Source: Saprospiraceae bacterium (GTDB lineage: Bacteria; Bacteroidota; Bacteroidia; Chitinophagales; Saprospiraceae). Taken from it: a DNA stretch of 64,000 nt. Below are positions 5,942 through 50,611 of this stretch, piece by piece. The stretch covers positions 62,001-126,000 of the forward strand of contig JANWXM010000005.1 in NCBI GenBank assembly GCA_025055285.1. Reading direction: 5' to 3'. The notes below the pieces were generated by a model. The model worked only from the letters and a program-made list of their open reading frames with translations. It had not been told where the DNA came from and did no database searches. Position numbers and translations under genes: made by a program. The stretch's first letter is position 1. The number at the start of each line of letters is the position of its first letter.

Positions 5942-7219
5942 ATGCAAGATTTTTCTCTATCTATTGCTCAACCCGCACCCGCCTTTACTCCGTGGCGTCA
6001 GAAAGTTGCTTTATCCTTGGGGGCAGTGGGTGTGTTGCTGTTGCTCATTGCCTGGGCAGCAGGAAAGGTTCTTGCGCCGCTTCCTGTCCTAATAGCCTCT
6101 TTTAGTTTGATGGCCACTGGCATTTGGCTTTTCGTACGCGAAGCATATTTGAAACATCCTTCTGGCATCCGAAATAACGGGACTTGGTTTCGCAGCCTCA
6201 CAGCGCGCGGCCCGTGGGGATGGGCGTTAGGTGTGCTCATTACGGGTTTTTACGTGTGCCTATACTGGTTTTCGCAGTATTTACACGGCCTCATTGCATT
6301 ATTTACCCCATTAAGTGAAGCGCTGCGTCATCGTCCAGCAGACCAATGGTTTGTCTACGGCACGCTTTACACAGTAGCAGTGTTGCTAATGGGCGTAAAA
6401 TTCTTTTTCAAATATCGGCACAACGCCTATCAGCGCCTTCGCACTGTTTCAGTAGTATTTTTTCAATTATGCTTTGCCTGGCTGCTGCCTAGCTTACTAG
6501 TGCGACTGCAGCAGCCAGAGCTCTATTTCTCCTACTTCTGGCCTCTCTCTTACTACCAAGGTACGCCGATGGCCTACCGCAGTTATCTGAATTCTGATCT
6601 AGGGTTATTTTACTTTTTCTTTGGGTTAGTCATGTTTTTTATTGGCACACCTGTACTCACTTATTTTTTCGGTAAGCGCTGGTATTGTTCGTGGATATGC
6701 GGCTGTGGCGGGCTCGCAGAAACAGCAGGCGACCCATTTCGCCACCTTTCAGATAAGCGCCTGCGCGCCTGGAAAATAGAGCGTTGGATGATCCACGGCG
6801 TATTGGCATTTGTCGTGCTAATGACCGCCCTATTGTGGATCAATGTCGCCACTGGCAGCAGGGTGCTTCAGCAATTTTCCGAGGCGTTTTATAAGACTTA
6901 CGCTTTTCTCATCGGTGCGACTTTTTCAGGCGTGGTAGGAGTAGGATTTTATCCTTTGTTGGGTAGCAGGGTATGGTGTCGTTTTGGCTGCCCGATGGCG
7001 GCATGGCTCGGCATTTGGCAACGAAAAAAGTCGCGCTTTCGTATTACGACAAATGGTGGACTGTGTATCTCGTGTGGCAACTGCTCGGCCTACTGCGAAA
7101 TGGGTATTGACGTGCGCGCCTATGCTCAGCGCGGTGAAGATGTCGTGCGTGCTTCTTGCGTAGGCTGTGGCATTTGTTCAGCAGTATGTCCACGCGGAGT
7201 TTTACGACTGGAAGGATAA
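5942..7219 (+). CDS. Membrane polyferredoxin (NapH/CcoG-like 4Fe-4S protein)
   Basis: 425-residue membrane protein with several hydrophobic helices and cysteine clusters. The first is C-S-W-I-C-G-C-G-G, the second C-R-F-G-C-P in the NapH/RdxA style, and near the C-terminus there are two classical ferredoxin motifs, CISCGNCSAYC and CVGCGICSAVCP. It should move electrons across or along the inner membrane through several Fe-S centres. The ATG at 5942 is preferred to an upstream TTG at 5927. The pairing with the flavoprotein gene just upstream suggests that NAD(P)H electrons pass through FAD to these clusters; the final acceptor is unknown. CcoG (copper reduction for cbb3 oxidase) is a possible relative, but no cco genes are nearby. 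Confidence 0.8.
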   Translation: MQDFSLSIAQPAPAFTPWRQKVALSLGAVGVLLLLIAWAAGKVLAPLPVLIASFSLMATGIWLFVREAYLKHPSGIRNNGTWFRSLTARGPWGWALGVLITGFYVCLYWFSQYLHGLIALFTPLSEALRHRPADQWFVYGTLYTVAVLLMGVKFFFKYRHNAYQRLRTVSVVFFQLCFAWLLPSLLVRLQQPELYFSYFWPLSYYQGTPMAYRSYLNSDLGLFYFFFGLVMFFIGTPVLTYFFGKRWYCSWICGCGGLAETAGDPFRHLSDKRLRAWKIERWMIHGVLAFVVLMTALLWINVATGSRVLQQFSEAFYKTYAFLIGATFSGVVGVGFYPLLGSRVWCRFGCPMAAWLGIWQRKKSRFRITTNGGLCISCGNCSAYCEMGIDVRAYAQRGEDVVRASCVGCGICSAVCPRGVLRLEG

Positions 7220-7292: not shown

Positions 7293-8654
7293 TCAAAAGA
7301 CTAGCGCCCCACCTATACGGAAATTCACCGCTGCTGAACGGTATGGGGTAATGGCATTGAGCGCATTGTCGGACAAAGCAAAAGCTTGAACCGGCCCAAG
7401 GCGTACAGCAGCACTGAGTCCCAGGTTGGTTGCTGAGCGGTTGTTGATGCTATACATGACACCTACTCCGAGCCAAGGCAATGGCAACCAATAACCACTA
7501 AAGCCTACAGCAGTTGTTTGTCGACGTTCATCTCGTTGGTGATGGAGCACAGCGCCCAGCGTCCAGCGTTGCAACAACTGCCAATGCACCGCAGCATAAT
7601 AGCGCGCAGGCAATACAGTGGTTAATTTAGCGTCAGCACGTTGAAAATTAAGCACATCGTTGAGGCTATCCAAAGCCGCACCAAAGTCAAGGCTGTCTAC
7701 AGTACCATTAAGAATGTCCGTGCCTGGTAGGAATAAGCCGCTATATTCAAATTTACCCAGGCTGTGGAAATACGCAGTATTCTGCTTCCATTGAATACGG
7801 CCGCCAATATCTAAGGCACTGGCGCTCAGAAGAAGATGCCTTCCAATGCGAATGAGCAAACCTACATCGCCACTGATCCCTGCGTTTTGGCCAAAGCGAT
7901 TTTTTAAGGCATTGAAAGAGAGGTCATATCCAAAGCCCGAGGTATCTACAGCAGCAATGAAACTAGAAGAGTAGAACGCGTAGTCGGTTTGGAGCGAGAG
8001 TTGATAGACGTCTGGCTCAGTAAAGACTTGGATTTTACGACGTGCTTCGTCACTGAGAAGCATAGCTGCTCCTGAGAGATACTTTATGCGCACGCCGATA
8101 CATAGGCGGTTGCCAACACTGCGCGCCAGCCCCACACCTAGTTCATCCCACCGTATGGTGCTAAGGGAAGGGCCAATATCCAGCAACTGACCTACAAAAG
8201 GGCCATTACCATACCAAAGTAACTCGGCCAATGCGCGCGTATATGTCAGGGTAGTAGCAGTGCGTTGGCTCCAATTGCCCGATAGATACCAGCCTCCTAA
8301 TCGAAAACCGATTAAAGCGCGCTCGTTGCGCTGATCTATGCGCAAAGTGTTTTCGGGTTGGAGTTTGCTAATAGCGCCGCTCAAATCTAAAATGGAGCGC
8401 TTTCCCTCGCGGCGCAGCAAGTCTCTATAAGCAATATCGCCCGAATGTGCAGCATCTAGACCTAGACTTGGGCCACCGATAAAGATGTTCTTTTCTGGAA
8501 GAAAGAGGGCCGGATTCACGGTATTTGCATGCCAGGTTTCTGGGCTGAGATACAACATGAGTTCCTGCTGAGCAGCGCCTCTTGAGACGATAAGCGTCAC
8601 CTTCAGCAGCAACATGTATCGAAGCAGGAGAGGCGGCAAGATGTATTTTCTCAT
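7293..8654 (-). CDS. DUF5723-like outer-membrane protein
   Basis: 453-residue exported protein: signal peptide (M-R-K-Y-I-L then a leucine-rich core), then the N-P-A-L-F-L-P stretch seen near the start of DUF5723 and FadL/PorV-like barrels of Bacteroidota, followed by alternating beta-strand segments to the end, which closes on a strand ending F-R-I-G-G-A-L-V-F. Most likely an outer-membrane beta-barrel of unknown cargo. The reading frame continues to a TTG at 8666, but ATG 8654 starts directly before a normal signal peptide. It lies 93 bp downstream of a large lipoprotein gene on the same strand and is probably co-transcribed with it. The DUF assignment rests on memory of the family pattern. 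Confidence 0.6.
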   Translation of the reverse strand: MRKYILPPLLLRYMLLLKVTLIVSRGAAQQELMLYLSPETWHANTVNPALFLPEKNIFIGGPSLGLDAAHSGDIAYRDLLRREGKRSILDLSGAISKLQPENTLRIDQRNERALIGFRLGGWYLSGNWSQRTATTLTYTRALAELLWYGNGPFVGQLLDIGPSLSTIRWDELGVGLARSVGNRLCIGVRIKYLSGAAMLLSDEARRKIQVFTEPDVYQLSLQTDYAFYSSSFIAAVDTSGFGYDLSFNALKNRFGQNAGISGDVGLLIRIGRHLLLSASALDIGGRIQWKQNTAYFHSLGKFEYSGLFLPGTDILNGTVDSLDFGAALDSLNDVLNFQRADAKLTTVLPARYYAAVHWQLLQRWTLGAVLHHQRDERRQTTAVGFSGYWLPLPWLGVGVMYSINNRSATNLGLSAAVRLGPVQAFALSDNALNAITPYRSAAVNFRIGGALVF

Positions 8655-23455: not shown

Positions 23456-24856
23456 ATGAATTTCGACCTAATCGTCATTGGAAGCGGCCCTGGTGGGTAT
23501 GTAGCCGCTATACGCGCCTCGCAATTAGGCATGAACACTGCAGTTATTGAACGCGAAAGCCTTGGCGGTATTTGCCTCAACTGGGGATGCATCCCCACCA
23601 AAGCACTCCTAAAGAGCGCTCAAGTATTCGAGTACCTTCAGCACGCTGAGGACTACGGCATTCGCCTCAATGGAAAATATCAGCCCGACTTCTCTGCTAT
23701 GATTAAGCGCAGCCGCAGCATAGCGGACAGTATGAACAAAGGCGTGCAATTTTTAATGAAGAAAAATAAAATCACTGTTATTTATGGCACAGCCAGACTA
23801 GCTCCGGGTCCAAAAGTCGTCGTTCAAGAAAAAGATGGCAAACAAGCTGAGTATACTGCAAAACACATCATCATTGCTACAGGTGGGCGCGCCAAGGAGC
23901 TTCCCAACTTGCCTATTGATGGCCGTAAAGTCATCGAATATCGCCGAGCTATGTCGCTAGAGGAGCAACCCAAGCGCATGGTCGTGGTCGGCGCCGGTGC
24001 TATTGGTGTCGAATTCAGCTACTTCTATCACACTATTGGTACTGAAGTAACGATTGTCGAATACTTAGAACAAGGTTTGGTACCTCGTGAAGACGCCGAC
24101 ATCTCAAAGGAGTTGGCTAAGATTTACTCGCGTAAAGGCATGAAAATTTATGCCGGATGGTCTGTGGAGGGTGTAGATACTTCTGAACAGGAAGTCAAAG
24201 TGTTTATCAAGAGTCGCGCAGATGGAAAGGTCGAGACACTTTCTTGCGACGTAGTGCTCAGCGCCGTTGGCATAACGCCCAACACGGAAAATATTGGCTT
24301 GGAAACGCTGGGCATCGCCACTGACCGCGGCTATATCCGGGTGGACTCCTATTATCGCACTAACGTCCCAGGCGTGTACGCTATTGGCGACGTCTTGCCA
24401 ACACAAGCGCTTGCCCACGTGGCTAGTGCTGAAGGAATTACGTGTGTAGAAAAGATTGCAGGGCTTGACCCTGAACCTATAGACTATAACAATATTCCCA
24501 GTTGTACTTATTGCTCCCCCGAGATAGCCTCCGTAGGATACACTGAGGCCGCTGCTAAAGAAGCAGGTTATGAACTACTTGTGGGTAAATTTCCCTTTAC
24601 TGCCTCGGGAAAAGCCAAAGCTGCTGGCACCTCCGAAGGTTTTGTCAAGGTTATTTTCGACAAGAAGTACGGAGAGTGGCTTGGTGCTCATCTCATTGGT
24701 GCTAACGTAACTGAAATGATCGCTGAGGTCGTAGCTGCTCGCAAACTCGAAACCACGGGCCACGAAATCCTTAAATCCGTACATCCTCACCCCACCTTGA
24801 GCGAAGCTATTATGGAAGCCACCGCAGCCGCTTATGGCGAGGTCATTCATCTGTAA
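23456..24856 (+). CDS. lpdA: Dihydrolipoyl dehydrogenase (E3)
   Basis: Reoxidises dihydrolipoamide of 2-oxoacid dehydrogenase or glycine-cleavage complexes with NAD+. 466 residues. FAD motif G-S-G-P-G-G at the N-terminus, redox disulphide Cys40/Cys45 in G-G-I-C-L-N-W-G-C-I-P-T-K, NAD motif G-A-G-A-I-G-V-E-F, FAD-closing A-I-G-D-V-L, and the C-terminal H-P-H-P-T-L-S-E that donates the catalytic His-Glu pair. No E1/E2 genes lie nearby. Confidence 0.95.
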   Translation: MNFDLIVIGSGPGGYVAAIRASQLGMNTAVIERESLGGICLNWGCIPTKALLKSAQVFEYLQHAEDYGIRLNGKYQPDFSAMIKRSRSIADSMNKGVQFLMKKNKITVIYGTARLAPGPKVVVQEKDGKQAEYTAKHIIIATGGRAKELPNLPIDGRKVIEYRRAMSLEEQPKRMVVVGAGAIGVEFSYFYHTIGTEVTIVEYLEQGLVPREDADISKELAKIYSRKGMKIYAGWSVEGVDTSEQEVKVFIKSRADGKVETLSCDVVLSAVGITPNTENIGLETLGIATDRGYIRVDSYYRTNVPGVYAIGDVLPTQALAHVASAEGITCVEKIAGLDPEPIDYNNIPSCTYCSPEIASVGYTEAAAKEAGYELLVGKFPFTASGKAKAAGTSEGFVKVIFDKKYGEWLGAHLIGANVTEMIAEVVAARKLETTGHEILKSVHPHPTLSEAIMEATAAAYGEVIHL

Positions 24857-37795: not shown

Positions 37796-37811
37796 TGTTC
37801 CACGTGGAACA
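37796..37811. other. parS centromere-like site (perfect)
   Basis: TGTTCCACGTGGAACA is a perfect 16-bp palindrome and matches the conserved bacterial parS core TGTTnCACGTGnAACA at every fixed position. ParB nucleates on such sites and they cluster near oriC. It lies in the 45-bp gap between the OmpA gene and thrC. Confidence 0.85.
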
Positions 37812-37834: not shown

Positions 37835-39148
37835 ATGGAACTCTACAGCACAAATAACCCTCATCTACGCGTAACTTTTCGGGAGGCTGTATTCCAAGGT
37901 CTTCCGCCCGATAATGGTCTCTTTATGCCGGTTTACCTTCCGCGAATGCCTCAAGCATTCATTGAACAACTTTATTGTCTAGACTTTGAGGAAATTGCTT
38001 TCCAACTAACCATGACACTTGTGGGCGACGAGATCCCGGAAAAATCGCTTCGAACCATTCTTCACCAGACCCTAACTTTTCCAGCACCTGTTGTCCAATT
38101 AAACGATAAAACCGGCATTTTGGAGTTGTTCCATGGGCCTTCACTGGCTTTTAAAGACTTTGGCGCTCGCTTTATGGCACAGGTCATGGCCTACTTCCAA
38201 CAAGACGCTTCTGATGAACTGATCATTCTCGTGGCTACTTCCGGTGATACAGGAGGGGCCGTAGCAGCTGGCTTCTATCAAACACCGGGCATTCGCGTCG
38301 TTATCCTTTATCCCTCTGGAAAGGTCAGCCCGCTTCAAGAAAAACAGCTCACTGCACTTGAACACAACATAACTGCCGTTGAAATAGAAGGAACCTTCGA
38401 CGATTGCCAAGCTCTCGTTAAAAAAGCTTTTTTAGACAAACAACTGCGGCAAAAACTGCGATTGAGCTCGGCCAACAGTATCAACATTGCTCGTCTACTG
38501 CCTCAAATCTTCTACTACTGGGAGGCATACAAGCAGGTTCAGCACCTCAAACAACCTATTGTTTTTTCCGTTCCCTCCGGAAATTTTGGCAACCTGACTG
38601 CAGGGCTCATTGCTCAACAAATGGGATTGCCCGCTCATCATTTCATTGCTGCTACAAACGTCAACGACACCGTGCCCGTATACTTAAAATGCGGACATTT
38701 CGAACCTAAACCCTCCGTTCGAACAATCTCGAACGCTATGGACGTTGGCAATCCCTCCAACTTCGCTCGAATGCTTCGGTTATATGGTTCCACGTGGAAC
38801 ATTATGCGTTCCTATGTCTCTGGGTTTGCCTTTACAGATGCGCAAACACGAGCCTGTATGAAAGAGACATTCGAGAAATATCAATATATGCTCGACCCAC
38901 ACACTGCTATAGGTTACTTAGGCTGGAAAACTTATCAGGAACAAACCTCTTCTTCCGCCTTTGGCATCGTGTTGGGTACAGCACACCCCGCTAAATTTCA
39001 ACAAACGGTAGAGGAGATTCTCCAATGCCCTATCCCTCTGCCTCCAGCACTTAAACAGTTGCTCGACCGCCCTAAACACGCCATCCAAATGCCAGCAAAC
39101 TACTCGACATTCCGTAAATGGCTGCTCGACTTTGGAGAAAAAAGGTAA
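37835..39148 (+). CDS. thrC: Threonine synthase
   Basis: Converts O-phosphohomoserine to threonine. 437 residues, PLP type II fold; the Schiff-base Lys107 lies in G-P-S-L-A-F-K-D-F, and the phosphate-cup and serine-threonine signatures S-G-D-T-G-G and S-G-N-F-G-N-L follow. A second parS-like palindrome (38786-38801) is embedded in the coding sequence. The plus strand here is strongly C-rich even though it is the coding strand, consistent with transcription against the replication fork. Confidence 0.95.
   Translation: MELYSTNNPHLRVTFREAVFQGLPPDNGLFMPVYLPRMPQAFIEQLYCLDFEEIAFQLTMTLVGDEIPEKSLRTILHQTLTFPAPVVQLNDKTGILELFHGPSLAFKDFGARFMAQVMAYFQQDASDELIILVATSGDTGGAVAAGFYQTPGIRVVILYPSGKVSPLQEKQLTALEHNITAVEIEGTFDDCQALVKKAFLDKQLRQKLRLSSANSINIARLLPQIFYYWEAYKQVQHLKQPIVFSVPSGNFGNLTAGLIAQQMGLPAHHFIAATNVNDTVPVYLKCGHFEPKPSVRTISNAMDVGNPSNFARMLRLYGSTWNIMRSYVSGFAFTDAQTRACMKETFEKYQYMLDPHTAIGYLGWKTYQEQTSSSAFGIVLGTAHPAKFQQTVEEILQCPIPLPPALKQLLDRPKHAIQMPANYSTFRKWLLDFGEKR
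38786..38801. other. Second parS site inside thrC
   Basis: GGTTCCACGTGGAACA differs from the site at 37796 only in its first base (15/16) and keeps the full inner palindrome GTTCCACGTGGAAC. It lies 990 bp from the first and is fully inside thrC. Reuse of the same variant half sites makes chance unlikely. Confidence 0.75.
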
Positions 39149-39166: not shown

Positions 39167-39955
39167 CTACCTTATCGCAGAGACCGTTGACATCGCAGTG
39201 ACTTCTCGTAAAAAAACGGCCAAGATGTCATTAAACTCTTCAGGTCGCTCCATCATGGGCGCATGACCACACTTATCTAAGAAATACAGACGAGAATTCT
39301 TTATCAATTCATGAAACTTCTCTGCGACAAATGGCGGCGTCACAGCATCCTGTTTTCCCCACACCAATAGCGTTGGCGCCTCAATGCGATGCAATTTGTC
39401 GGCCAGATTATGGCGAACCGCCGATTTAGCTGTCATTACTATCCGCAAGCCCTTCGCTCGATCGTTCACAATGCCGAATACCTCATCCACTAATTCCTTT
39501 GTAGCTACAGCAGGGTCGTAAAAAGTGTCGGCCGTCTTTTTTCTAATATATTCATAATCACCGCGTTTTGGAAAGGCACTGCCAAAGGCACTTTCAAAGA
39601 GCCCTGAACTACCCGTCAAAGTAATGGAGGCAACGCGTTCCGGATGTTCCAACGCGTACAACAAAGCAATATGCCCACCTAGGGAATTGCCTAATAAGTG
39701 AACTTTCTGAAATCCCTTGTATTCTACAAAACGCGTCACAAAGTCAACCAATCCCTTCACCGAAACCTCTAAGATGGGCATATCATATATGGGCAGCATC
39801 GGTATAACGACGCGATACTCCCCTGCGAAGCGCTTAAACAAAGCCTCAAAATTGCTCAGAGCTCCAAAAAGTCCGTGCAACAGCAGCAGGACCTCGCCCT
39901 TTCCATTCGACTCGATGTACTTAAAGCCGTTTTCCTCTTTGATAGGAACGTTCAT
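39167..39955 (-). CDS. Alpha/beta-fold hydrolase
   Basis: 262 residues. Nucleophile elbow G-N-S-L-G-G, acid in W-G-K-Q-D-A-V-T-P-P and histidine in C-G-H-A-P-M-M-E-R complete a triad, with the oxyanion region L-L-H-G-L-F-G. Bacterial members of this branch (MhpC/BioH/haloalkane dehalogenase-like) hydrolyse varied esters. Convergent with thrC with an 18-bp spacer. A -7 element lies about 33 bp upstream of its start. Confidence 0.88.
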   Translation of the reverse strand: MNVPIKEENGFKYIESNGKGEVLLLLHGLFGALSNFEALFKRFAGEYRVVIPMLPIYDMPILEVSVKGLVDFVTRFVEYKGFQKVHLLGNSLGGHIALLYALEHPERVASITLTGSSGLFESAFGSAFPKRGDYEYIRKKTADTFYDPAVATKELVDEVFGIVNDRAKGLRIVMTAKSAVRHNLADKLHRIEAPTLLVWGKQDAVTPPFVAEKFHELIKNSRLYFLDKCGHAPMMERPEEFNDILAVFLREVTAMSTVSAIR

Positions 39956-39987
39956 TGGTAGCGTCTAAACTGAAGAGAACCGCCGAG

Positions 39988-39995
39988 CAAAAATA
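39988..39995 (-). promoter_or_regulatory. Putative sigma-A -7 element
   Basis: Minus-strand TATTTTTG, a match to TAnnTTTG, 33 bp before the start at 39955. The -33 region has TTGG at a short spacing of 16 bp. Confidence 0.4.
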
Positions 39996-40167
39996 AGGTT
40001 AAATTTAGTGGCCAATACACTGTAGCATTTTTCTGGGTGTTAAACCTTATTGTGTTCTCCAAATGCAGCACAGAGATTCCTTTCTACCCACACGTCAGTA
40101 CAGGAGACCTTCTTTCCTCCTCGCAGGCTTTAAAGACAGTAATTAACATTTCCGAAGAAAAACTACG

Positions 40168-41271
40168 TCACGCCAGGCTCACCAGCCTCCGACTCTTCAT
40201 TACAACGTACACGACGAAAATGACAATGCCGAGCAACAAAACAGCCCCCATCTGGTGCAATACGCCAAGCAATACCGGCACACCACCTCGGAAATGAATA
40301 AGCGTGAGAATACCCAGCAATACTTGTCCACATAGAACACCTCCTAAAGCAAGGCTGGCCCATCGAAGAGGAGGCGTCGAGGCCTGCTTCCAGAGCAAAG
40401 CTGCTGCATACAAACCCACGAGAAATAATAGGTAACCTACATTTCGATGAAGAAATTGGATTAGAGCAGGCATAAAAGGATTGGAGTCATAGTGTACAAA
40501 ACTATCCCAATTCCAGTAGGAAACGTCCGCTAAAATAGTAGGCCAATATGTACCATTCATATCAGGCCAAGAAGGAAAAAACAAACCGGCTCGCGTGCCC
40601 GACATGAGAGCTCCCAGAGCAATTTGAAGGAAAAGCACGCCAAGAAGCGCGTAGCTTATGCTGATCCACCGTTTCCTGTAACCCGGATCCGGTTTGACCT
40701 CATAAGTAGAGAGGGTAATCCACAATAAATAGGAAAAAATAACTAAAGCCATACACAGATGCAAGAGAAGGTTGTATGCATTCACCCATGGCCGATGGAT
40801 GAGCCCACTGGCCACCATGATCCAGCCAAAGAAACCCTCCAAAGCCGCCAAAGAAATCACCGCAAGCAGATGCTTAAGCAAATATTTGGGTAATAAACTT
40901 CTCCATAGAAAAATACCAAAGGGAACGACAAAAGCCAAGAACATTAGCCTTGCCCATAATCGGTGAAAGTACTCCCAGAAGTAGATAAACTTAAACTCCG
41001 ATAAACTCATGCCCCGGTTTATCTTAGCGTACTGTGGCGTAGCCTTATAAAGGTCGAATGCTTTTTTCCAAGCTTGTTCACTCAAAGGAGGCAGAGTGCC
41101 TGTAATAACTTCCCATCGCGTTATGCTCAGACCACTCCCTGTAAGGCGTGTTACGCCACCGATGACTACCTGCAGAAAAAGCATAACTACTCCGACCCAT
41201 AGCCATAGCCGTATGGCACGAGCTACTCTTGGATTATCCTTTTGGACGCTTGGCATAGCAAGATATCCCAT
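40168..41271 (-). CDS. ctaA: Heme A synthase (COX15/CtaA)
   Basis: Oxidises heme O to heme A for cytochrome c oxidases. 367 residues from the ATG at 41271 (the frame also opens at a TTG at 41319). Two homologous four-helix halves; helix 1 starts V-V-I-G-G-V-T-R-L-T-G-S-G-L-S and is followed by the E-Y-F-H-R motif; later H-R-P and F-L-H-R carry the axial histidines. Nearest gene to the candidate origin on its left. No cytochrome-oxidase genes in the window. Confidence 0.93.
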   Translation of the reverse strand: MGYLAMPSVQKDNPRVARAIRLWLWVGVVMLFLQVVIGGVTRLTGSGLSITRWEVITGTLPPLSEQAWKKAFDLYKATPQYAKINRGMSLSEFKFIYFWEYFHRLWARLMFLAFVVPFGIFLWRSLLPKYLLKHLLAVISLAALEGFFGWIMVASGLIHRPWVNAYNLLLHLCMALVIFSYLLWITLSTYEVKPDPGYRKRWISISYALLGVLFLQIALGALMSGTRAGLFFPSWPDMNGTYWPTILADVSYWNWDSFVHYDSNPFMPALIQFLHRNVGYLLFLVGLYAAALLWKQASTPPLRWASLALGGVLCGQVLLGILTLIHFRGGVPVLLGVLHQMGAVLLLGIVIFVVYVVMKSRRLVSLA

Positions 41272-41730
41272 AGATGTGAAAACCTCGTTGTTTATTGTCT
41301 TCTCCTTCTTTAAACACAAAACTCAACGGAAGGATGCAGCAGTTTTTTTTCAACGCTTCGGTTTATTTTGATAAACACTTTTTTTATTTTAGATCTTTTC
41401 ATTTTTATTTCATCATGCATGTGTATTTGTGAGTTTCTTCACAGCAAACGGAAGTTAATTCAACTGTAGCAAATTCCGCTGTTTTTTACACATACTCGCG
41501 AGTTAATACTAGCTTAACATGTAATTGTTTGCACATATATCCACAGCAGTGTTCAAAAAAGGCCAAAAGGAGGTGTTGGACTTTTTTCGCAGTTTGGGAA
41601 TGTGGAAACGTAGAATCAAAAAGAGCATAAAACTTGAAAGGCGTGGGAAAAGGCCTTCAGAAAAGGGACAACTTGTGACCAGTTGTGAAAAAACTGACCG
41701 AAATGCTGCTACTTTTCAACGAGAGAGACA
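41272..41730. other. Candidate replication origin (oriC)
   Basis: 459-bp gene-free, AT-rich gap. Plus-strand base skew flips here. By hand count, 38941-39120 has 61 C and 29 G, and 41101-41160 has 20 C and 11 G; to the right, 41881-41940 has 19 G and 10 C, and 43201-43260 has 24 G and 11 C. That is the sign expected at an origin. A T-rich stretch lies at about 41343-41413 (possible unwinding element). ATATCCACA at 41537-41545 matches the DnaA box TTATCCACA in 8 of 9 bases; weaker 7/9 matches include 41601-41609. A 10-bp palindrome ACTCGCGAGT sits at 41494-41503. Two parS sites lie 2.5-4 kb to the left. Confidence 0.55.
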
Positions 41731-43890
41731 TTAAACAAACAAGTTATAAACACCCCAGGCTGACAGGTAAGCGAGTAGTGCCATGAATATAAATTGAAGG
41801 AGCGGCCATTTCCAGGATCCTGTTTCGCGTCGCACAACAGCTAGTGTACTCATGCACTGCAAGGCAAAGGCATAAAATACCAGGAGCGAGAGAGCAGTGG
41901 CTAAGGTGTATACGGGTTGACCTGTATCTGCAAATTTTTCTTCTCTCATACGCTGGCGAAGGGTGGCTTTGGCTTCATTCTCGGCAGGATCGCTGATGTC
42001 TCTCTCAGCACTACCTAACTGATATAGAATGGCCAAAGTGCCAGTAAACACTTCGCGCGCAGCAAAAGAAGTGAAGATGGCTATGCTAATTTTCCAGTCG
42101 TATCCTAACGGACGCATAAACGGTTCGAAGGCTTTACCAAGATGGCCGGCATAGGAAGCCTCCAATTTTTGGGCAGCTACTAGATCCTCTGTTTGAGCAG
42201 GTGTTAGTCCCCGCGCTGAGGCCATTGCGCGAACTCTCGTTTCAGTTTCCTTCAGACTAGAGCCAGGGCCAAAACTTGCCAAAGCCCACAGAATAACAGA
42301 CACGACTAGGATAACGCGTCCGGCTTCCCAAATGAAAGCGAAAATTTTTTCCCACACCGTCAGCCAAAGGTTTCGCCAATGAGGCATGCGATAGACAGGT
42401 AATTCCAGAGCCAAATAAGATGACTCGCGAGTATGTAAAACTTTTTTGAGGAAGTAACCCGTGCCTAACGCCGCAATTACACCTAAAATATACATACAGG
42501 TAAAGGCCAGACTTTGCAAGGAGAATATTCCTAATACTCTTTGGTCTGGTACAACTAAGCCGATGAGGACAATGTACACGGGAATGCGAGCACTGCAGGT
42601 GATGAAAGGTGTAACGAGAATCGTAATTAAACGCTCTTTCCAGTTGCCAATGGTTCGGCAGCTCATAATTGCTGGAACAGCACAAGCGCCGCCACTGATT
42701 AAAGATACAATGCTTCGGCCATTCATGCCAAATTGTCGCATGAACTGGTCAAACAGAAATACAACACGGGCCATATAGCCCACCTCTTCCAAGAATGTGA
42801 TTAGGAAAAAGAGGATGGCGATTTGAGGAACGAACATCAAAATGCCTCCTAAACCTGCTAAAACACCATCGGTAAGTAAATCAGTTGTCCAATGCTCGGG
42901 CAAGTAATCTTTTAAAAGGCTACTGAGCTGGCTAAAGGAGGCCTCGATAAAGTCCATCGGTATAGAACTCCACTCGTAGACAGCCTCAAAAATTAAGAGC
43001 ATGACCAGCAAGAATACAAGAGGCCCTATCCATTGGTTGGTCAGTATTGTGTCTAGATGGTCTGTTGTTGTGCTTGGAAAACGGGGCGGATGCTGTACAG
43101 TCTGCCTAACAATAGGCGTAAACTGGTCGTAGCGCGAGAGGGTCTCATCCACTTGGTGTTTTAGGGAGTTGAATTGCTTTTCAGATACAATAGCAGCTAT
43201 CGTTTGGCGAGCCTGTTCTGTCAGGCTTGGAAGCCAGGAGTGGTGGTGGGCTAGCAAAAGTGCTCGATAAGGATCGTCTGCACCGACGTTCAAACGTACG
43301 GCTTCGGAAACACTTTTTTCTCGTTCGTCCAGCGAATAAAAACTAGCTGGTTGCTCCTTTTTTTCTTCCAGTAGCTTTTCAAGTTCTGATAAGAGTTTGG
43401 AAATGTTTTCTCCTGTTCTACTGCTAATTAAGACGACAGGTATGCCAAGTTTTTCCGATAACTTGGTCGTATTAACTTTCAGGCCGATGTCTTTGGCCGC
43501 ATCAGCCATGTTAAGCGCCATCAGGAGCGGGAGGTGCAAATCCAGCAGTTGAGTCAGGAGCAGCAAATGTTTCTCTAGATGAGTAACATCCGCTACATAA
43601 ATGACAGCGTCGGGATAATGTGGATCAGCAGGATTGGTAAGAAGTGCCGTCACAATTTTTTCATCTGTAGCTGTAGGATAAAGGCTGTAAGCGCCGGGTA
43701 GGTCGATTAGTTCCACCTCTCTTCCGCTCGGAAGGGAGAAGCGCCCTCTTTTTATGTCGACTGTAATTCCCGGAAAATTGCCTGTTTTTTGCCTAAGCCC
43801 AGTGAGCAGATTAAAGAGTGTGGATTTTCCGCTGTTTGGGTTTCCTATGAGGGCTATCGTACGTGCTTGCTTCGCCACTGCCGCGCTCAT
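41731..43890 (-). CDS. feoB: Ferrous iron transporter FeoB
   Basis: 719 residues. N-terminal G domain with P-loop G-N-P-N-S-G-K-S-T (16-24), switch Thr in F-P-G-I-T-V, D-L-P-G-A-Y-S-L and N-M-A-D (NKxD-like), then the Feo transmembrane core with G-x-x-C-x-V-P-A-I motifs (G-A-C-A-V-P-A-I; C-S-A-R-I-P) that form the gate. Imports Fe(II). ATG 43890 overlaps the feoA stop by 4 bp (ATGA), so the two are co-translated. The frame runs on to 43983, inside feoA; that extension is not real. Confidence 0.95.
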   Translation of the reverse strand: MSAAVAKQARTIALIGNPNSGKSTLFNLLTGLRQKTGNFPGITVDIKRGRFSLPSGREVELIDLPGAYSLYPTATDEKIVTALLTNPADPHYPDAVIYVADVTHLEKHLLLLTQLLDLHLPLLMALNMADAAKDIGLKVNTTKLSEKLGIPVVLISSRTGENISKLLSELEKLLEEKKEQPASFYSLDEREKSVSEAVRLNVGADDPYRALLLAHHHSWLPSLTEQARQTIAAIVSEKQFNSLKHQVDETLSRYDQFTPIVRQTVQHPPRFPSTTTDHLDTILTNQWIGPLVFLLVMLLIFEAVYEWSSIPMDFIEASFSQLSSLLKDYLPEHWTTDLLTDGVLAGLGGILMFVPQIAILFFLITFLEEVGYMARVVFLFDQFMRQFGMNGRSIVSLISGGACAVPAIMSCRTIGNWKERLITILVTPFITCSARIPVYIVLIGLVVPDQRVLGIFSLQSLAFTCMYILGVIAALGTGYFLKKVLHTRESSYLALELPVYRMPHWRNLWLTVWEKIFAFIWEAGRVILVVSVILWALASFGPGSSLKETETRVRAMASARGLTPAQTEDLVAAQKLEASYAGHLGKAFEPFMRPLGYDWKISIAIFTSFAAREVFTGTLAILYQLGSAERDISDPAENEAKATLRQRMREEKFADTGQPVYTLATALSLLVFYAFALQCMSTLAVVRRETGSWKWPLLQFIFMALLAYLSAWGVYNLFV

Positions 43891-44129
43891 GCCTCTACTA
43901 ATATGCTTTGTGCTTCTTCTCGGCGGAGGGCGAGGCGAATGCCGTCTGCCTTCACGTAGTAGGTATGACCAAAAGGCGTGCAACGCACCATTTCGATGAG
44001 TGAACCCGGCAGAACGCCCATTGCCGTCAGGCGACTAGCCAGAACAGGGTCTTCTATTCGCAAAGTTCGCGCGCACTCACGGGACTTCAAGTTCTCGACG
44101 GTCCGGTATCTTCTTACCATCCAATTCAC
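43887..44129 (-). CDS. feoA: Ferrous iron transport protein FeoA
   Basis: 80-residue SH3-like cytosolic protein that supports FeoB. It has the typical layout: R-L-T-A-M-G-V-L-P-G-S in the middle and the C-terminal Y-V-K-A-D-G-I-R-L-A-L-R-R-E-E-A strand pair. First gene of the feoAB operon; two candidate operator palindromes lie just upstream. Confidence 0.92.
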   Translation of the reverse strand: MNWMVRRYRTVENLKSRECARTLRIEDPVLASRLTAMGVLPGSLIEMVRCTPFGHTYYVKADGIRLALRREEAQSILVEA

Positions 44130-44156
44130 GATTTAGACAAAATCCAAACAATGAAA

Positions 44157-44176
44157 GTGAACAAGGTGTTCACCTT
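44157..44176. promoter_or_regulatory. Overlapping inverted repeats upstream of feoA
   Basis: GTGAAC-N5-GTTCAC (44157-44173) overlaps AAGGTG-N2-CACCTT (44163-44176), 28 bp before the feoA start at 44129. Position and AGG/CCT arms suggest an operator for a metal-sensing repressor of DtxR/MntR or Fur type; the regulator is not identified. Confidence 0.4.
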
Positions 44177-44263
44177 TATCTTCCCTTTCTGAGGAAGCTC
44201 AACCAGCCAGCAGAGAAACGACGTGGAAGGAGTTGCAACTCATCTCTCCAGTCATTTTTAGCA

Positions 44264-44277
44264 CTGATAATTATCAG
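44264..44277. promoter_or_regulatory. Palindrome CTGATAATTATCAG (Fur-box-like core)
   Basis: A perfect 14-bp palindrome containing GATAAT/ATTATC, the half-site of Fur boxes, between trhO and feoA, 135 bp upstream of the feoA start. It could be a regulatory site for feoAB or part of a trhO terminator. Confidence 0.4.
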
Positions 44278-44286
44278 CGCCGCTGT

Positions 44287-45339
44287 TCAGCGAGTATCAT
44301 TAAGTAAAGGCGTTTCTGGACTAGGACGAAAATGGGCGTTCGGGTATCGCTGGCCATTGAATTTTTGCATTCGAGCTCGGCGACGCTGTTCTTCAACAGG
44401 AAGGCAGATAAACTCCTTACATTCTATAGAGCAACAAGCCTGATACTTTTGCCGACAACAGGAGCACTGAATGAAGAGCAGGTGACAAAAGTTGTTGGCA
44501 CAATTAGTATGGGTATCGCACGGAGCGCCGCACTGGTGGCAATGAGCAATGATGTCCGGACTAATGCGCTCGCCAAGGCGCTCGTCAAAGACGAAATTTT
44601 TACCTATAAATTTATTAGGTAAGTTTTTAGCTCTGACTTGGCGGGTGTATTCGATGATGCCACCTTCCAGTTGGAAGACGTTTTTGAATCCGTGGTGTTT
44701 TAGGTATGCGCTAGCTTTTTCGCATCGGATACCTCCAGTACAGTACAGGACAATGTTGCGGTCTTTTTTATCTTCGAGAAGGGATTTTACGTAAGGAAGT
44801 TCTTCGCGAAAGGTATCTACGGGAGGCAAGATGGCGCCTTTAAAATGACCGACTTCGCTTTCGTAATGGTTTCTCATGTCTACGAGGATGGTATTTGGGT
44901 CATCCGTCAAGGCATTAAAGGCCTCAGCATCTAGATATGTTCCACTATTTGATGGGTCAAATGTTGGGTCGTCAATGCCGTCCGCTACGATTTTGGGGCG
45001 CACCTTTATTGTCAAAGTGAAGAAGGACTTTCCATCGTCTTCCACGGCGATATTGAGTCGTAGGTTGCGTAGAAAGGAAATACTTTCTAAAGCGGCTTGA
45101 AAGTCCGGCATTCGGCGAGCAGGCACGGATACTTGGGCATTAATTCCTTCGTGTGCCACGTAGATACGACCCAACACACCAATTTCATCAAGAAGGCCGT
45201 AGAGGTGGTTGCGAAAGAAGGCCGGGTTAGCAATGGGTGTGTATCGATAGAAAGAAAGTGTAGTTCTTTTTTCAGCACTAGATATGAGTCTTTTGCGAAG
45301 TTCTTGTCGATTGATTCGGTTGTAGAGAAAAGTAGCCAT
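44287..45339 (-). CDS. trhO: tRNA uridine(34) hydroxylase (rhodanese family)
   Basis: 350 residues. N-terminal acylphosphatase-like domain (25-115), central rhodanese domain with active-site Cys200 in [10 protein letters not shown], then a C-terminal Cys-rich region with C-x2-C and C-C pairs for metal (H-C-H-Q-C-G-A-P-C and C-S-C-C-R). Makes 5-hydroxyuridine at the tRNA wobble position from prephenate-derived chemistry (TrhO/YceA family). Confidence 0.93.
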
Positions 45340-49624: not shown

Positions 49625-50611
49625 ATGTTTTACAACATGGATTGTGTAGAGGGCTCAAAAATGTATTTAAGCGACAATTCAATAGACTTAATTATTACAG
49701 ATCCTCCATACGGGATTGAAGGCCATACTCTTCATAAGCATTACAATAGGAAAGAGGAACACGTCTTAGACGGATATATTGAAATTCCAAGGGAAGAGTA
49801 TCCAATGTTTTCTGAAAAATGGATAAAAGAGGCGGAAAGAGTATTAAGACCCGGAGGTTCGATATATATATTTTCTGGCTATACGAATTTAATTCATATA
49901 CTTTCCGCAGTGCAAAAAACAAATTTGAAAGAGGTAAACCATATTATATGGAAATATAATTTTGGAGTTTACACTAAGAATAAGTATATATCCTCGCATT
50001 ATCACATTTTGTATTATGTTAAACCTGGTGCAAAACCCACCTTCAATACTAACTGTCGTTTTTCTGATGCAGAAAAGGATGAGTCCGGAAGGTCTTTAAA
50101 TTACCGAGACCGAGAAGACGTATGGATAATAAACAGGGAATATAAGCCTGGGCAAGTAAAGAATAAAAATGAACTTCCTAAGGAGTTACTGATGAAAATT
50201 ATACAATACTCCAGCAATGAGGGAGATTTGATATGCGATTTTTTTCTTGGAAGTTTTTCCACAGCGAGGGTAGCAATCGGTTTAAACAGGCGTGCTTGCG
50301 GGTTTGAGAAAAGTAAGGTAGCCTTCGATTACGGAATGAGTATAATAAGCAAATTAACGCCTGGATACCTGCTCTCCGAGATAAGGATACCAAAGGAAAA
50401 CACCTACTTTAATCAAGGAAAGTCAATTAGCGAAGAGGAAAAGAAAAAGATAATTAGAACGTACGTTCATTTGAGAAGAAGATTCTCAAAGGAAAAAGCG
50501 ATTGAATTACTCTCCGCTGAGTTTGGAAGAGGGCCTTGGTCTATTCGAAGGATAATATCAGAAGTTAATTCGTGTGAAAATTTTAATTTGTTTCTACCCA
50601 ATACCTCATAA
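49625..50611 (+). CDS. DNA adenine/cytosine-N4 methyltransferase (orphan, type II beta-like)
   Basis: 328 residues. Catalytic motif IV D-P-P-Y-G at 26-30 and a C-terminal SAM-binding motif I (D-F-F-L-G-S-F-S-T-A) after a central recognition region, the IV-then-I order of beta-class methyltransferases. The C-terminal 80 residues are helical and basic (H-L-R-R-R-F-S-K-E). Sequence is AT-rich with many AGA/AGG/ATA codons, unlike all neighbours, so it is probably acquired. No restriction endonuclease or specificity subunit adjacent. It may protect against invading DNA or have a regulatory role. Confidence 0.8.
   Translation: MFYNMDCVEGSKMYLSDNSIDLIITDPPYGIEGHTLHKHYNRKEEHVLDGYIEIPREEYPMFSEKWIKEAERVLRPGGSIYIFSGYTNLIHILSAVQKTNLKEVNHIIWKYNFGVYTKNKYISSHYHILYYVKPGAKPTFNTNCRFSDAEKDESGRSLNYRDREDVWIINREYKPGQVKNKNELPKELLMKIIQYSSNEGDLICDFFLGSFSTARVAIGLNRRACGFEKSKVAFDYGMSIISKLTPGYLLSEIRIPKENTYFNQGKSISEEEKKKIIRTYVHLRRRFSKEKAIELLSAEFGRGPWSIRRIISEVNSCENFNLFLPNTS

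Follow-up and report, generated by a model that had tools for sequence, protein, structure and literature searches.

A probable chromosomal replication origin beside ctaA in a Saprospiraceae bacterium

The DNA analyzed here, referred to as the window, is a stretch of 64,000 nucleotides corresponding to bases 62001-126000 of contig C55 (147,618 bp) in a Saprospiraceae genome (G000) of 3,616,589 bp in 93 unordered contigs. The genes ctaA and feoB enclose an intergenic gap whose features, together with those of its surroundings, are listed in Table 1. The order OmpA gene, thrC, hydrolase, ctaA, feoB is identical in the relatives G018, G002 and G019. In all three feoB adjoins the gap, as it does in G022, where the gap is wider.

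Table 1. Positions of the candidate origin, its elements and the neighboring genes, in window coordinates
Feature	Position	Strand	Remarks
oriC candidate	41272..41730	.	AT-rich gap from ctaA start to feoB end; skew minimum at 41544; DnaA-box-like cluster
Conserved core of the candidate origin	41408..41552	+	Sole whole-genome match (3.6 Mb) to the relatives' model at E ≤10; E 1.1e-7, 150 of 444 candidates scored
Candidate DNA-unwinding element (AT-rich tract, 91% A+T)	41379..41410	.	Putative role
DnaA box ATATCCACA (8/9)	41537..41545	+	Column with a box in 9 of 20 relatives
Weak DnaA box TTTTACACA (7/9)	41484..41492	+	Column with a box in 10 of 20 relatives
Degraded box AAACTCACA (5/9, 4 mismatches)	41428..41436	-	Column with a box in 14 of 20 relatives
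Weak DnaA box GTTTCCACA (7/9)	41601..41609	-	Box scan and relatives' matrix
Weak DnaA box TTTTTCACA (7/9)	41684..41692	-	Highest-scoring site of the gap under the relatives' matrix
Degraded box TTTTCAACG (6/9, 3 mismatches)	41713..41721	+	Column with a box in 17 of 20 relatives
Predicted parS TGTTCCACGTGGAACA (exact)	37796..37811	.	Between OmpA-family gene and thrC; 3.5 kb from gap
Predicted parS (1 mismatch)	38786..38801	.	Inside thrC; 2.5 kb from gap
ctaA (COX15-CtaA, heme A synthase)	40168..41271	-	PF02628, E 7e-86 on ORF 40168-41319; apparently conserved neighbor of the origin in Saprospiraceae
feoB (ferrous iron transporter)	41731..43983	-	PF02421, E 2e-50; right-hand neighbor
thrC (threonine synthase)	37835..39148	+	parS inside it or next to it in 13 of the 14 same-genus stretches having parS

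An earlier note on this DNA had described an AT-rich gap of 459 bp holding one 8/9 DnaA box and several weaker ones. The A+T content proved to be 63.6%, a value within the highest 0.4% of 459-bp windows on C55, and the length holds if ctaA begins at the ATG ending at 41271; translation might instead begin at a TTG at 41319. A box scan likewise returned a single 8/9 box, which is unremarkable by itself (the C55 mean is 0.14 per 540 bp), and 7 DnaA-box-like sites in all at ≤2 mismatches, a density in the top 0.09% of contig windows. Using a matrix derived from 100 sites in 20 relatives, 12-19 sites were found in the gap depending on the threshold, which places it in the top 0.02-0.05% of contig windows. 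Further 8/9 boxes occur at 40324 and 40716, inside ctaA. The sole pair of 8/9 boxes <200 bp apart within 10 kb, at 50121 and 50255, is located inside ORF 49625-50611. This ORF encodes 328 aa with a DPPYG motif, which we take to indicate a site-specific DNA methyltransferase; it lies in a stretch of low G + C content (0.41) and was maybe acquired. No terminator-like site was present in window 41000-42000, a search of 39900-44300 against Rfam at gathering scores gave no match, and folding of the gap as single-stranded DNA (z -1.8) was not informative.

The earlier note had also stated that the plus strand turns from C-rich to G-rich in genes of either orientation, and had placed the switch in this gap. 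The minimum of the cumulative GC skew falls at window position 41544, inside the gap, for both the 64-kb window and the whole of C55. The curve of C55 descends, with reversals, to this point and then climbs to the end of the contig 44 kb further. The lowest 400 positions cover about 1.6 kb (41198-42796), which makes for a broad trough, and a change-point fit places the switch at about 43000 in the window. Shuffling of 1-kb blocks never equaled this fit in 2000 trials, and shuffling of 5-kb blocks did so in 3 of 2000. Based on crude ORF calls of at least 200 aa, the skew of plus-strand genes changes from -0.011 to +0.043 across the switch and that of minus-strand genes from -0.022 to +0.046, so that both orientations shift towards G as described. 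At codon position 3 the sign tracks gene orientation, and what the two orientations have in common is the shift alone. With the same crude ORFs of C55, 34 of 91 are co-oriented with forks departing from the proposed origin. This is below half and opposite to the usual bias of gene orientation, which favors co-orientation with replication forks.

The predicted parS sites provide a second marker. Two such sites within 4 kb had been reported, and they were found at the distances given in Table 1; at ≤1 mismatch to TGTTCCACGTGGAACA they are exactly two in the genome, both in the window. As 16-bp palindromes near the candidate origin, in a genome with a ParB gene (contig C3; TIGR00180, E 1.6e-53), the sites at 37796 and 38786 are together a predicted parS centromere. 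Sites at ≤1 mismatch were present in 35 of the 40 genomes searched, G000 included. Both ctaA and parS could be placed in 18 same-genus relatives; they are on the same contig and within 16 kb of each other in 14, 20 kb apart in G017 and on different contigs in G006, G010 and G016. The site inside thrC lies at the same 951 bases from the start of thrC, or from the start of the match, in the loci L075, L076 and L078.

We compared the region upstream of ctaA among 24 same-genus relatives, of which 20 had a usable ctaA match and were used for box counts, alignment and model. In the 540 bp upstream of ctaA these 20 carry 82 DnaA boxes (≤1 mismatch), compared with 3.1 expected from the same loci. The upstream cluster predominates in the genus; ctaA itself plus 300 bp downstream holds 12 boxes in 19 loci. 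The upstream regions align, with a conserved core (consensus CATCATCAGGGCTGTTAGTTTGTGGA), several box columns and an AT-rich stretch at a place similar to that of the tract in G000. A profile of the 20 relatives, built without G000, was searched by nhmmer against two contigs of G000 and matched 41410-41606 (E 4.9e-11, 37.1 bits); among 500 dinucleotide-shuffled versions of the gap the top score was 6.6 bits. A 162-position model gave the whole-genome result listed in Table 1, a single match in 3.6 Mb with 150 of 444 candidates scored, as would be expected of a predicted origin present once per chromosome. Four same-genus genomes had been left out of the model set and were searched with the finished model afterwards. 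Matches were strong in G015 (2e-21) and G012 (8e-20). Those in G003 (0.016) and G004 (0.037) were weak and are unconvincing, because matches away from ctaA in the other-family genomes G121 and G152 reach 0.003-0.004.

The motif CATCATCAG, conserved beside the AT tract, was considered as a DnaA-trio of a BUS element and rejected: it is a trinucleotide repeat at a similar place but seems to differ from the canonical form of the trio. Between the AT tract and this motif (columns 1-16), a short GC-rich inverted repeat of varying letters (GGCCTGCGGCC, CCCAAGGG and others) was observed in L083, L091, L087, L086, L094, L093, L081 and L082; no such repeat beside CATCATCAG was seen in G000.

Most of the conserved box columns are degraded in G000, and its nearest relatives, G018 and G002, have three 8/9 boxes each. 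In the DNA-binding domain of DnaA these three genomes read RH[VI]AIYL, and 17 other same-genus proteins read RQLSM[YF]L (four same-genus relatives lie outside this list, and G024 gave no DnaA match). Weak boxes together with a divergent DnaA domain suggest a change in box preference in the clade of G000, G018 and G002.

An origin linked to dnaA was considered and rejected. The earlier note had proposed that the skew minimum of the whole chromosome be sought in the gap; this stood for the whole of C55, and the contig carrying dnaA (C14) has no comparable skew V over 60.0 of its 61.1 kb, while the relatives were followed by samples. The lowest skew point of C14, 50374, is about 42 kb from the DnaA domain at 8328, and four boxes (≤1 mismatch) 3.0-4.4 kb before the domain are spread over 1.4 kb. 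A second box cluster on C55, at 23745-23968 and outside the window, has three boxes, one of them exact, in 224 bp. It was also rejected, being at no skew minimum, and is a possible titration site. In four relatives dnaA and ctaA are 1.9-3.8 Mb apart (1.93 Mb in G007). The G130, G207 and G136 records, complete or nearly so, carry the DnaA domain at bases 427-1102, with ctaA at 2.05-3.80 Mb. In G130 and G207 the sampled stretches nearest base 1 are negative on both sides, and thus no switch is apparent at dnaA in these samples.

Chromosome-wide skew in relatives was determined from sampled stretches (20 kb in G130). The clearest case is G130, a complete genome of one contig (7,507,556 bp) with ctaA at 2.348 Mb. 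All 8 samples up to 2.35 Mb are negative, all 10 between 2.35 and 5.72 Mb are positive and both of those beyond are negative again, which puts the second switch between 5.7 and 6.3 Mb of the 7.5 Mb. This two-switch pattern indicates an origin at ctaA, with the terminus roughly on the opposite side of the chromosome, and the local minimum over 80 kb is 465 bp upstream of the ctaA match. As a test of the origin, sampled skew was fair in G207, where 2 of 9 stretches left of ctaA are positive and 3 of 10 from ctaA rightwards are negative (5 exceptions in 19). A single 700-bp stretch upstream of ctaA in G207 contains 17 boxes, and the local minimum is 826 bp upstream. Within the genus, the near-complete G009 has a local minimum about 1.6 kb upstream of ctaA. 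In G007, where the test was poor, the local minimum lies between ctaA and parS, about 11 kb from the former, and the wider sampled skew is mixed.

We also examined ctaA loci beyond the genus. Four of the 80 loci collected had <700 bp upstream, leaving 76 tabulated. The box and skew comparison used 52 family-type loci, grouped by record title and listed kinship without a tree, and 9 Flavobacteriia loci, the other 19 being same-genus or having short flanks. In the 700 bp upstream of ctaA the family-type loci contain 174 boxes, compared with 12.1 for permuted 9-mers; 29 of the 52 have at least 3 boxes and 6 have none at ≤1 mismatch, so weak boxes are not unique to G000. Four of these 6 box-free loci still have a skew minimum upstream of ctaA. 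A second excess of boxes spans +500 to +1200 relative to the ctaA match, covering the 3′ half of ctaA and sequence beyond it. The local skew minimum falls in the 700 bp preceding ctaA in 22 of the 52 family-type loci, where a uniform distribution would give 2.3, and in none of the 9 Flavobacteriia-type loci. For loci with sufficient flank (42 of 52 and 5 of 9, respectively), the skew rises from left to right across the gap in 39 of the 42 family-type loci, compared with 2 of 5 Lutibacter-type loci.

Individual genomes of the family varied, the skew being noisy in several relatives. Among six, the local minimum is <1 kb from ctaA in two, G130 and G207. G136 has boxes and parS with the local minimum 19 kb away; G166, G134 and G114 have boxes with the local minimum not at ctaA, and the skew falls across ctaA in G114. 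A parS site (≤1 mismatch) is present in G130, G207, G136, G166 and G114, always within about 16 kb of ctaA, and G134 has none at this threshold. The best match of the model was just upstream of ctaA in eight of nine family members from other genera (E 2e-10 to 0.007), and G166 had no match at ctaA. The weakest of the eight (0.007) is no better than the chance matches elsewhere (0.003-0.004), yet it is located at ctaA. Many relatives seem to keep their origin at the same place beside ctaA, far from dnaA.

A link to ctaA as a general feature was rejected: the box cluster is absent at ctaA in five other-family genomes of the order (G121, G152, G183, G031 and G026; 0-1 boxes), and none of the nine Lutibacter/Flavobacteriia loci has its skew minimum there, their boxes upstream of ctaA (7 versus 1.2 in the control) being a weak excess. 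In G044, from another family, the model matched L305 at 6814-6960 (E 3.9e-6), with boxes at 6950 and 7003, beside a nadA-like gene rather than ctaA. No parS at ≤2 mismatches was present in the 14 kb examined there, and the skew minimum is 3.4 kb away. The origin in the family of G044 perhaps has another neighbor gene.

Clusters of DnaA boxes also exist outside origins, datA being an example. The gap is the upstream region of ctaA as well, and its boxes could serve DnaA titration or a DnaA-regulated ctaA promoter with the true origin elsewhere. The skew minimum and the genome's only parS sites (≤1 mismatch), however, are both at this gap, the sampled skew of the complete relative G130 switches at ctaA, and the genome has no second match to the model (150 of 444 candidates scored). 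We consider a titration or promoter site highly unlikely. The switch itself might be the boundary of an inversion or an island, since the skew is weak and its local trends vary; conservation of the gene order from the OmpA gene to feoB in G018, G002 and G019, and the rise of skew across the ctaA gap in nearly all family-type loci with sufficient flank, make this explanation barely credible.

A further possibility is that the ancestral origin was here and that the active origin of this lineage has since shifted by a few kb, leaving an eroded gap. Such a shift would fit the degraded boxes at columns that have a box in 14, 17 and 6 of the 20 relatives, as well as the broad trough and the change point near 43000. 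On the other side, the relatives' matrix still detects its 12-19 sites in the gap, and the only close 8/9 pair within 10 kb (50121, 50255) is inside an ORF. We regard a shifted origin as very improbable. The earlier note had taken the sign of the switch as that of an origin and not of a terminus. The skew minimum in the gap, the nearby parS and the relatives' model matching this gap alone (150 of 444 candidates scored) support that reading, and we believe that the gap at 41272-41730 is very probably the chromosomal replication origin (oriC).

If the gap is the origin, the cluster of weak 9-mers (about 41428-41721) would serve as the binding region for DnaA, whose gene is on another contig, and DnaA would melt the AT-rich tract (41379-41410). 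The helicase would then be loaded and two forks would depart in opposite directions; two diverging forks would account for the switch from C to G. We infer that the nearby pair of parS sites would be loaded with ParB, which would move the new origins apart.

The locus appears to be an ordinary DnaA-type oriC whose place is conserved over the family, outside the usual textbook neighborhood. With DnaA-dependent origins of the DoriC type it has in common an AT-rich intergenic region, a cluster of DnaA-box-like 9-mers, a skew minimum and nearby parS. It differs in being beside ctaA, not dnaA, and in that all boxes but one are 7/9 or weaker. In Bacillus subtilis and Helicobacter pylori oriC is bipartite, with dnaA between the box clusters. 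The 52 family-type loci outside the genus are similar in having an excess of boxes on both sides of one gene; they differ in that the gene in between is ctaA, not dnaA, and the genus of G000 has mainly the upstream cluster. Melioribacter roseus, a member of the Bacteroidetes/Chlorobi group, likewise has an origin defined by skew and DnaA boxes, located between dnaA and dnaN (PMC3534657) and hence dnaA-linked, unlike the candidate in G000. Titles and abstract openings on origins in Saprospiraceae, Haliscomenobacter, Saprospira and Bacteroidetes, on parS, and on heme A synthase with oriC do not describe a ctaA-linked origin, and a computed DoriC entry may exist for some genomes. A search of PMC10508125 for the terms origin, dnaA and replication gave no match.

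We suggest tentatively, and with somewhat less than even confidence, that the Saprospiraceae have one ancestral origin by ctaA, in many members with boxes on both sides, so that ctaA would separate the two halves of a bipartite origin, the role that dnaA has in Bacillus, and that the initiator and origin of the clade of G000, G018 and G002 may be co-evolving. The weak boxes of this clade make co-evolution of DnaA and its boxes testable. If the origin is indeed beside ctaA, numbering from dnaA misses the origin in G130, G207 and G136. The gap upstream of ctaA would provide a computable origin marker for a family of mostly uncultured bacteria, and such a marker would be useful for estimating growth rates from read depth.
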